A stretch of 21,914 nt of DNA. Source: a virus. Positions 158 through 2,944 of the stretch are shown piece after piece (the stretch's first letter is position 1; every line of letters begins with the position of its first letter). The position numbers were made by a program, and so were the translations under genes. The notes under the pieces were generated by a model. That model had not been told where the DNA came from and ran no database searches. It was given only the letters and a program-made list of their open reading frames with translations. The stretch lies in the IMG/VR virus record IMGVR_UViG_3300022822_000091, positions 1 to 21,914 of that record; one strand, given 5' to 3'.

Positions 158-523
158 CTAAAAGGGTAGTCCATCTTCATCTTCGACTAAAGATTGCTCA
201 GGAGCTTGATTTGACACCTCTTCAGATGATTTCTTCTCAATCTTCCAAGCAGACAAACTCGTAAAGTACTTTCCTTTCCATTCGTTGCATCCAATATTAA
301 ATTGAACACTAACTTCATCACCTACTTTTTGGAACTTTGTAAGGTTGGTTACTTTTTCCTCACCAAAAACTTCAAAGCAAAATACTTGCTCCTTACCTTC
401 ATATCCATCGTTATTGGATATTAGGAAGTTTTGCTTCTTCCATTCCTTACCACTTGCTTTTGCAACTCCGCTTTCAACGTCTAAAAATTGCTTAATCTTA
501 CCACTTAATGCTAATTCACTCAT
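158..523 (-). CDS. DUF3127 single-stranded DNA-binding-like protein
   Basis: This 121-residue protein matches the DUF3127 family, a short OB-fold-like family found in Bacteroidota and their phages and thought to replace SSB. A beta-rich core (about residues 4-95) includes the segment QVFCFEVFGEEK and a basic/aromatic EWKGKYFTSLSAWKIE strand. A disordered Ser/Glu/Gln linker follows, then the acidic tip EDEDGLPF. That tip closely mimics the C-terminal peptide of bacterial SSB (DDDIPF type) used to recruit replication and repair partners. The gene follows the ERF annealing protein by 9 nt, so both likely act on the same single-stranded DNA during phage recombination or replication. Family assignment is by residue pattern; the SSB role is inferred from the tail and the neighbour. 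Confidence 0.82.
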   Translation of the reverse strand: MSELALSGKIKQFLDVESGVAKASGKEWKKQNFLISNNDGYEGKEQVFCFEVFGEEKVTNLTKFQKVGDEVSVQFNIGCNEWKGKYFTSLSAWKIEKKSSEEVSNQAPEQSLVEDEDGLPF

Positions 524-532
524 AATTTCTAT

Positions 533-1093
533 TTATTTAGTTTTTAATAATGCTACTATACTACTTGGTACTGTGAACTTCTTTTCTAAACTATTTACAA
601 CGTAATCTAACTTGGTAGGGTTTTCTATTACATATTGCTTAGCTCTAAGGTAAGACTTGTCAGATAGATTTAGTAGTGGCAATTGCTTGTCGTGAGTATT
701 ACTTGCATCACTATCCTTCGTGTCATCAATAAGTAATAAATTACCTAACGCATATTTCTTGGCATACGATGAAGCAGCACCTGTTCTTTGTGGCATTTGC
801 ATACCCTTTGCTGTAAAATCTACAATAGCTTGTGCCGTAGACGCAACAGAGCTTTCTCTGTCTGTTGTTTCTAAATCAACAACTTTAGCCTCAGAATGAA
901 CATATACACTCTCTCCCACTATCCTTAGTTCATCCGTTATTTTAAACATAACGTTGTACTTCTTTTGAAGAGGCTTGATTGCCTCTAAAATGTCTTCTGC
1001 TGAACGGTAATTGTACTTACCAAAGGAGTTTCTTTGTCCTTTTGGAGCTTTTAGCTCTGACTGAATGAATTGTAATTTTTCTAAAATTGTCAT
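533..1093 (-). CDS. erf: ERF-family single-strand annealing recombinase
   Basis: This 186-residue protein has the ERF superfamily layout. The N-terminus carries a helical LEKLQFIQSELKAPKGQ and the conserved F-GKYNYRSAEDIL segment (residues 24-36), followed by a beta-sheet (47-75). Further on is the hallmark TGAASSYAKKYALGNLL segment (104-120) and an Asp-rich DDTKDSDA end (123-130). Residues 145-186 form a short helical tail that is probably DNA- or partner-binding. ERF proteins form rings that anneal complementary single strands in phage recombination and genome circularisation. The gene sits 2 nt after a 42-residue coiled-coil ORF and just before an SSB-like gene, a typical annealase plus SSB pair. 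No exonuclease partner is visible in the window. Confidence 0.9.
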   Translation of the reverse strand: MTILEKLQFIQSELKAPKGQRNSFGKYNYRSAEDILEAIKPLQKKYNVMFKITDELRIVGESVYVHSEAKVVDLETTDRESSVASTAQAIVDFTAKGMQMPQRTGAASSYAKKYALGNLLLIDDTKDSDASNTHDKQLPLLNLSDKSYLRAKQYVIENPTKLDYVVNSLEKKFTVPSSIVALLKTK

Positions 1094-1095
1094 TG

Positions 1096-1224
1096 TTAAT
1101 TTGCTTTAAATGTTAATAATTTATTATATTCTTCTTTTGATTCGTCTAACTCAGACTTTAATTCGTCTACCTTGTTTAGCAAGGCTATTATTCTTTGTCT
1201 TTGAAATTCTACAAGCTCGTTCAT
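1096..1224 (-). CDS. 42-residue coiled-coil early protein
   Basis: This short ORF begins MNELVEFQRQRIIALLNK and ends with stop TAA 2 nt before the ERF start. It is almost entirely charged/leucine heptad-like helix (L4, I13, L15/L16, V19, L22, L26), suggesting a small coiled-coil dimer. Support for a real gene comes from its own promoter 21 nt upstream, the tight junction with the ERF gene, and the fact that it fills an otherwise empty 180-bp gap. It could be an accessory factor of the recombinase or a leader peptide; no family was recognised. Confidence 0.65.
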   Translation of the reverse strand: MNELVEFQRQRIIALLNKVDELKSELDESKEEYNKLLTFKAN

Positions 1225-1683: not shown

Positions 1684-1713
1684 AAAAAAAGAGGCTACAA
1701 TTAAGTAACCTCT
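1684..1713 (-). terminator. Intrinsic terminator ending the late (structural/lysis) region
   Basis: On the minus strand a 9-bp stem (AGAGGTTAC pairing with GTAGCCTCT, one G-U pair) with a 6-nt loop is followed by seven T residues (1690-1684). It lies 32 nt after the stop of the last lysis-region gene and just before promoter P1, so it separates late and early units. Confidence 0.85.
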
Positions 1714-1744
1714 CTAAACAAAAAACAAAATAAACAAAAAACAA

Positions 1745-2173
1745 TTAATATATTACTATCTCTGATTTCTTTAAATAAGAGTCTGTATCAAAGTATATGA
1801 AGTCATCTGCGATGTGTATTCTTGTAACACCATACTGAACTAACCCCCTTACAAATTTAAGCCTTATTCCTTTATCACAGCACTTAAATTTAATAGACTT
1901 ACCAACACGATGTCCGCTATTTGTTGGTAACTTAGTTTTATCTGCCAAAGGCTTAGACACATAACCCTTTAAAATGAAACCAAATATTCTCTCGGTCTTG
2001 CAAATAGCGTCTAATATAAATATAGGCTCTGATTCCATAAATCTCTTACCTGAACCTAATGTACAAGGGGAATCGAACATTGACCACTTGTAGACAGACA
2101 AGCCTTCGCTATCCATCTCTTCTGTGTATGTGTCCGTATATTCTACAGAGTATTTATTTTTAAGCGTATTCAA
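1745..2173 (-). CDS. Degenerate peptidase M15-like protein (predicted inactive)
   Basis: Residues 30-142 follow the M15 (D-Ala-D-Ala carboxypeptidase-like) phage endolysin pattern: FDSP...GSG near 33-42, then FILKGY (66-71), PTNSGHRVG (83-91), and GVTRIHIADDFIYFDTD (115-131). This aligns nearly end to end with the active endolysin two genes upstream (its NPTSSHIKG and GFTRLGIAETFIHADFD). Of the three expected zinc ligands only H88 survives: the Asp is K95 and the last His is Y127. The conserved Arg after Tyr is V72. It is therefore probably a pseudoenzyme, perhaps a peptidoglycan-binding or regulatory partner. The full frame starts with TTG directly after the holin stop; an ATG at 2116 (123 residues) is the alternative and keeps the whole M15-like part. 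The frame is intact with no disruption. Confidence 0.72.
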   Translation of the reverse strand: MNTLKNKYSVEYTDTYTEEMDSEGLSVYKWSMFDSPCTLGSGKRFMESEPIFILDAICKTERIFGFILKGYVSKPLADKTKLPTNSGHRVGKSIKFKCCDKGIRLKFVRGLVQYGVTRIHIADDFIYFDTDSYLKKSEIVIY

Positions 2174-2611
2174 TTACTTTTTATTTTTTCCATATTCACG
2201 CAAAGTAAAGTAACCCCCAATAGCTGTTACACCCATTGTCATAAGTATTGGTAAGTACGCTTCACCAAGAGGTTTACCCCACATTGCACAAACAATAACA
2301 ATATCTATAAGCAATGTAAAATTAGCAACTACCAACGGTCTAATATTTCTTGGTAGCCAATCTTGAGATTTATTGTCTGACTCCCATCTCTTAGTAAGCT
2401 CTCTTTCGTGCTCAACGTCTTTCTGAAGCTCTGCAATCAACATCTCTTTATCATCTTCTGTAAGCTCCTTGTCACCTGTTATAGCATTTAATATGTCAGA
2501 CACCTTTCCTCCTGTTATAGCATCCACTAATGGTAAACCTACTTTTTTACCTGTTTTTACAATTCCTGCAAATAGTTTGCCAAAAAAAGTCTTTTTATCT
2601 CCCTCTTTCAT
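2174..2611 (-). CDS. Holin of the 3TM / GTA-holin family (DUF3154-like)
   Basis: This 145-residue protein carries the family signature WLPRNIRPLVV (residues 85-95), followed by two hydrophobic segments (about 93-110 and 117-136) and a basic C-terminus (REYGKNKK). The N-terminal 80 residues hold an amphipathic segment (8-45) and a charged helix (50-78). Such holins permeabilise the inner membrane to release or trigger the endolysin. The gene lies between the M15 endolysin upstream and the degenerate M15 paralogue downstream, giving a clear lysis cassette. Length and signature fit the family; the number of true membrane segments (two clear, possibly a third weak one) is uncertain. Confidence 0.85.
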   Translation of the reverse strand: MKEGDKKTFFGKLFAGIVKTGKKVGLPLVDAITGGKVSDILNAITGDKELTEDDKEMLIAELQKDVEHERELTKRWESDNKSQDWLPRNIRPLVVANFTLLIDIVIVCAMWGKPLGEAYLPILMTMGVTAIGGYFTLREYGKNKK

Positions 2612-2620
2612 AATTTATAT

Positions 2621-2944
2621 TTAATAAGTCCAACTAACATTTTGTGATTTATCCAAGTCAAAATCTGCGTGAATAAAAGTTTCTGCAATCCCCAATCTCG
2701 TAAAGCCAACGTGTATTAGAGCCTCTAAGACCAAGAACCTTTCTCTACTACTTCTTATAGCTATATCCACTGCTAAGCCTTTGATATGGCTTGAAGTAGG
2801 GTTCTTTATTGATTCAGGATGCTCAGGACTTCTGTACGCTGAATTTATATTAAAAGGGATACCTGCATATTCTCTTGCAGCATCTAACTTTTCCAAGAAG
2901 CAAACATCCATATTCTCTTCTATATTTTTAAAGTATTTACTCAT
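2621..2944 (-). CDS. M15-family endolysin (D,D- or L,D-peptidase)
   Basis: This 107-residue protein is a compact peptidase M15_3-type domain. Zinc ligands are seen as H53 and D60 in SSHIKGLAVDI and H92 in FIHADFD, with the substrate-side SAYRSP (residues 35-40) upstream. It would cut peptidoglycan stem peptides at lysis. Compared with usual family members the N-terminal FDSP...GSG strand is missing: the protein begins MSKYFKNIEENMD and goes straight to the helix FLEKLDAAREYAG. No signal peptide is present, so export must rely on the holin. The start overlaps the preceding small membrane-protein gene by 8 nt, and the holin follows 9 nt downstream. Confidence 0.9.
   Translation of the reverse strand: MSKYFKNIEENMDVCFLEKLDAAREYAGIPFNINSAYRSPEHPESIKNPTSSHIKGLAVDIAIRSSRERFLVLEALIHVGFTRLGIAETFIHADFDLDKSQNVSWTY

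Follow-up and report, generated by a model that had tools for sequence, protein, structure and literature searches.

T7 lysozyme (gp3.5) is the best-documented precedent for a phage cell-wall zinc hydrolase fold with a second, zinc-independent function. This zinc cell-wall amidase binds and inhibits T7 RNA polymerase, and zinc is not needed for the inhibition (PMC5445346). Outside phages, Hedgehog has been linked to the M15/DD-peptidase fold family (PMC6027127, PMC8052667), and its N-terminal domain uses this fold for protein binding. The closest phage proteins are the M15_3 endolysins (PF08291 / PHROG 894). A literature search for inactive endolysin paralogues in phages turned up nothing relevant, and there seem to be hardly any descriptions of phage pseudoenzymes that stem from lysis enzymes.

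The window analysed here is the whole of a 21.9 kb stretch of DNA, an IMG/VR virus record. Beside its holin and M15_3 endolysin it encodes a second M15-like protein, called pseudo-M15 in the following. Fold, HxxG motif, spacing and ancestry are common to pseudo-M15 and the M15_3 endolysins, as is an N-terminus of the FDSP..GSG or CxCGC type. Unlike these endolysins, pseudo-M15 falls below Pfam detection and is not bound to one given holin or endolysin; the substrate Arg and two of the zinc ligands, the Asp and the second His, are replaced in all members. T7 lysozyme has an Amidase_2 fold and is still an active enzyme, whereas pseudo-M15 has an M15 fold and would be a separate, dead paralogue. 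The Hedgehog domain, with Z 6–7 to the model of pseudo-M15, keeps its zinc site and is a secreted animal signal; in pseudo-M15 two ligands are gone and no export signal is evident. Pseudo-M15 is a widespread, selected family without its own entry in Pfam, NCBIfam or PHROGs.

The lysis region of the window and its host

Along the minus strand, a small hydrophobic ORF is followed by the endolysin, the holin, pseudo-M15, a strong terminator and a module of small ORFs, KDLcc, ERF and SSB genes (Table 1). The endolysin, the holin and the paralogue lie where a preliminary description of this DNA had placed them, and all three are on the minus strand. The TTG start of pseudo-M15 comes directly after the TAA of the holin, with zero gap; co-transcription of the two is therefore probable, and the window copy is likely to be transcribed late, along with the lysis genes. 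KDLcc is a label coined here for a coiled-coil-like ORF of 42–60 aa of the type MKDLxDFKNxQIEALQ...

Table 1. Features of the window between the lysis genes and the single-strand binding protein, in minus-strand order
Feature	Coordinates	Strand	Remarks
Small ORF with a single hydrophobic segment	2937..3101	-	Overlaps endolysin start; coordinates set by hand
M15_3 endolysin	2621..2944	-	Pfam Peptidase_M15_3, E=3.8e-9; PHROG 894 endolysin
Holin	2174..2611	-	PHROG 3427
Pseudo-M15	1745..2173	-	142 aa; TTG start abuts holin stop
N-terminal segment of pseudo-M15			YTDTYTEEMD + FDSP..GSG
Intrinsic terminator	1688..1715	-	30 nt past pseudo-M15 stop; z -5.65
KDLcc, small coiled-coil-like ORF	1096..1224	-	MNELVEFQRQRIIALL...; coordinates set by hand
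ERF single-strand annealing protein	533..1093	-	First large gene of the downstream module
DUF3127 / single-strand binding protein	158..523	-	

The small ORF upstream of the endolysin gave no family match and is possibly a second holin or an antiholin. Counterparts occur upstream of the endolysin in relatives (L003, L014, L021 and L285).

The phage probably infects a marine flavobacterium, because the nearest named relatives of the window capsid gene are the Nonlabens phages P12024S/L (32%) and phages of Flavobacterium and Olleya carry matches to a replication ATPase of L003, a relative.

M15 ancestry and the altered zinc site

Pseudo-M15 is shown to be homologous to the M15 endolysin of its own phage, with a similarity beyond chance. 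The two proteins match in BLASTP (E=5e-7) and, by tblastn within their own record, at E=3e-4, and a pseudo-M15 profile aligns with the endolysins in hhalign over residues 25–139 (E=9e-16). The homologue at L072 matches an M15 peptidase of Rheinheimera phages (6e-10). An M15-like structure, on which the preliminary description made its reading depend, is what AlphaFold2 predicts. The model (pLDDT 80.6) has the Zn DD-peptidase 1lbu as its best solved-structure match (Z 11.4, 2.8 Å, 116 residues), followed by other M15 endolysins and by Hedgehog, and the BFVD matches are for the most part M15 peptidases. Searches of Pfam, NCBIfam and PHROG gave the window protein no family match of its own, and a sequence search of the PDB gave none either. 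None of 41 pseudo-M15 members matches PF08291 at the cut-off of the Pfam model itself; L230, from the group T described below, does match it, with 27.3 bits. A PADLOC match (E=0.009) was taken as chance.

In the window endolysin, H53, D60, H92 and Y37-R38 are intact. It lacks the N-terminal FDSP..GSG, which is a true family feature. The alignment with the paralogue reads as claimed earlier, with the pairs (pseudo-M15/endolysin) H88/H53, K95/D60, Y127/H92 and V72/R38. Pseudo-M15 of the window thus keeps one zinc ligand (H88), has two replaced (D to K95, H to Y127) and has V72 for the substrate Arg. The same positions were compared in 56 distinct full-length pseudo-M15s. The first His is found in 56/56, the Asp position is occupied by Lys in 44 and by Arg in 12, and the second His position is Tyr in 55/55, one sequence having a gap. 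The position of the substrate Arg, after (S)GY, holds Thr, Val or Leu in all 56.

The loss is not wholesale: every intact relative keeps the first His together with HxxG. H88, Y127 and D129 are invariant among pseudo-M15s. The former active site, however, shows no enrichment of invariant residues (Fisher p=0.25), which leaves the idea of a retained ligand pocket unsupported.

Maintenance by selection

Scanning IMG/VR yielded about 73 distinct copies of pseudo-M15; many of the contigs are fragments. For the closest pairs dN/dS is 0.05–0.10, and the pooled value is 0.23, versus 0.20 for ERF and 0.20 for the endolysin. Purifying selection on pseudo-M15 is thus shown, and the maintained pseudopeptidase of the preliminary description stands. 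The same description had considered that the copy might simply be decaying if homologues elsewhere carried all zinc ligands. All 56 distinct relatives are without the same ligands, so that no ligand-complete homologue was found among them, and these fixed substitutions together with the low dN/dS of the closest pairs rule out decay. Broken copies were seen only in L018/L156, with a frameshift (L018), and in L015, whose truncated copy is followed by a tyrosine-recombinase-like gene. A scan of 84,980 host genomes found no pseudo-M15, by a pattern search that needs short conserved stretches and could miss distant prophage copies.

Gene neighbourhood and transcription signals

Enough upstream DNA was available for 55 distinct loci. 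Pseudo-M15 lies behind endolysin and holin in 44 of them, and in 10 it follows DUF3310, sigma and metallophosphatase genes of a replication operon. At the 10 loci, the operon is of early type and no lysis genes surround pseudo-M15. These 10 loci represent about five or six lineages, with L078 as an additional case; the record of L078 is without a lysis region, and no inference on the lysis type of this phage was drawn. In the contig of L050 (L173), endolysin and holin lie 8 kb from pseudo-M15.

On the downstream side, KDLcc follows pseudo-M15 in 58/62 cases. The pairing looked absolute in loci found with pseudo-M15 or ERF seeds and was broken by a KDLcc-seeded scan, which disposes of a strict association. 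Since KDLcc modules without pseudo-M15 exist (L285, L320, L326 and L330), pseudo-M15 is not essential to the module. Collectively, the link with the KDLcc-ERF-SSB module is shown to hold across lineages, whereas the link with particular lysis genes does not.

A terminator lies 3′ of pseudo-M15 in 58/73 copies overall and in 39/44 of those in the late-type arrangement, and in most relatives it closes the transcription unit after pseudo-M15. In this arrangement, 12 of 34 upstream regions, after collapsing, have the Bacteroidota promoter element TAnnTTTG at ≤30 nt from the ATG, versus 1.0 in shuffles. In many relatives, for example L026, L021 and L030, the promoter element TATATTTG stands a few nucleotides 5′ of the pseudo-M15 ATG, and a transcript starting from it would be nearly leaderless. 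The 58 kb record IMGVR_UViG_3300046167_000289, which includes L026 and L028, contains two similar copies of the whole lysis-pseudo-M15-ERF region; two phages were probably joined in its assembly.

Relation to the lysis genes

A position next to the holin had suggested, in the preliminary description, a partner of the endolysin, or an inhibitor or immunity factor. This proposal did not hold up, as lysin and holin types exchange around an unchanged pseudo-M15 and the 10/55 loci stand off the lysis genes. Pseudo-M15s that are 95–100% identical adjoin differing types of endolysin (A or B) or of holin (B or C), and over the wider range of 85–100% identity exchanges of endolysin A/B and of holin are likewise seen. 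Close kin adjoin an Amidase_2 lysin, not an M15 enzyme, in L213, L220 and L253, and in L221 the lysin slot holds a DUF5675 gene. In L093, L094 and L222, the holin is followed by pseudo-M15 and no endolysin adjoins; a 65-aa acidic ORF precedes the holin in these three loci. The exchange of lysins and holins, the Amidase_2 neighbours and the arrangement in L093/L094 together rule out a general, dedicated role as partner of the M15 endolysin. The ‘complementary losses’ noted earlier between the two window proteins are a coincidence: in L175 and L228-L241, FDSP..GSG is kept in the endolysin and the pseudopeptidase alike, and a complementary split of domains between the two is thereby ruled out. 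The case is a warning that a gene adjacent to a holin need not serve lysis.

Regulation of lysis could take a broader form, in which lysis is delayed or tuned by pseudo-M15 binding to the endolysin or to its substrate, peptidoglycan. Such a role agrees with the position behind endolysin and holin and before the terminator of the unit, in the 44/55 loci and in the window, where pseudo-M15 is translated directly after the holin; masking of the substrate, a conceivable form of it, would moreover need no match to the type of endolysin. It is nevertheless rather unlikely, in view of the near-identical pseudo-M15s with differing endolysin and holin types, the close kin beside an Amidase_2 lysin or DUF5675 gene, the 10 loci in the DUF3310/sigma/metallophosphatase operon, the 8 kb that separate pseudo-M15 from the lysis genes in the contig of L050, and the many copies with a promoter-like element of their own.

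Proposed role

At about an even balance of probability for its parts taken together, pseudo-M15 is an M15-fold protein, predicted to be catalytically dead, of marine Flavobacteriaceae phages, and has a regulatory or DNA-metabolism binding role exerted without catalysis. It would be a soluble cytoplasmic protein, with an interaction surface formed by the remodelled M15 fold and the conserved N-terminal segment YTDTYTEEMD-WSMFDSP..GSGK.FME. In the style of T7 lysozyme, it might bind and modulate a phage or host component of transcription, replication or recombination. Judged from gene neighbourhood and by analogy, transcription or replication would be the most likely target. Weighing against such a binding role are the probable late transcription of the window copy, the early-operon arrangement in just 10/55 distinct loci, the KDLcc modules without pseudo-M15, the lack of special conservation at the old active site, and the chance that group T proteins (see below) still bind metal.

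Early inhibition of host wall synthesis or of superinfection, with the dead M15 fold binding wall precursors in the cytoplasm or else an enzyme of the host, is an unlikely alternative function. Descent from M15 peptidases implies a stem-peptide cleft in the ancestor, the first His and HxxG are always kept, and the promoter-like element and the copies in early operons would suit early action. No member of the window clade retains the substrate Arg, however, and the old cleft shows no special conservation.

A special case of the proposed binding role would make pseudo-M15 a recombination accessory that replaces NinG/Rap in the same gene slot. A NinG-like HNH protein indeed lies between the lysis genes and KDLcc in L285, L286, L320, L326, L330 and L331 (PF05766, with E from 8e-13 to 6e-8 for the three that were searched), and NinG and pseudo-M15 never occur together among the loci compared. 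These loci, however, amount to about five distinct phages that are probably related among themselves, the slot holds many unrelated small genes, and the NinG and M15 folds are unrelated. A Pfam search found no NinG/HNH domain in pseudo-M15, the gene slot alone being in common. Replacement of NinG is thus highly unlikely.

Intermediate forms and origin

An ERF-seeded scan gave two further groups of relatives, T and U; ERF and KDLcc seeds favour related phages. Their genes occupy the corresponding locus, upstream of KDLcc/ERF. In group T (L228, L230-L239 and L241), the motif HLIGRAAHI...YIHVDND corresponds to a His-His-His site, and the Arg is present in some members. With this unusual metal site, group T proteins may still bind metal. 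In group U (L213, L217, L219-L221 and L223), the Asp position holds Lys, Glu or Ile, and Tyr stands for the second His. L253, with Arg and Tyr, is placed beside the window family.

A maximum-likelihood tree sets all endolysins apart from a clade of T, U and pseudo-M15 (support 100/99); with all columns, T is the first branch and the window family is nested deepest. When the ligand columns are left out, the main split remains (SH-aLRT 100), but T and U can no longer be ordered firmly. Most simply, a single old paralogue would have lost its site stepwise; the direction of change depends on rooting with the endolysins. That the site was instead rebuilt around His88, Tyr127 and Asp129 in an altered but active metallo-enzyme is extremely unlikely: these residues are invariant and the His-His-His site of group T could still bind metal, but Lys or Arg at the Asp-ligand position in 56/56 brings a positive charge to the metal site, the substrate Arg is missing and conservation is not concentrated there.

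A complete scenario would have a lysis peptidase duplicated, its zinc site dismantled stepwise (H-D-H, H-H-H, H-K/E/I-Y, H-K/R-Y) and the product converted into a DNA-metabolism protein in the place of NinG. As a whole this course of events is distinctly unlikely; if true, replication or recombination would have gained a factor from the fold of a cell-wall enzyme, with the intermediates still alive. Living intermediates would open the loss of catalysis and the gain of a new role to stepwise dissection. In the phages that carry T or U genes, the active endolysins are intact where present.
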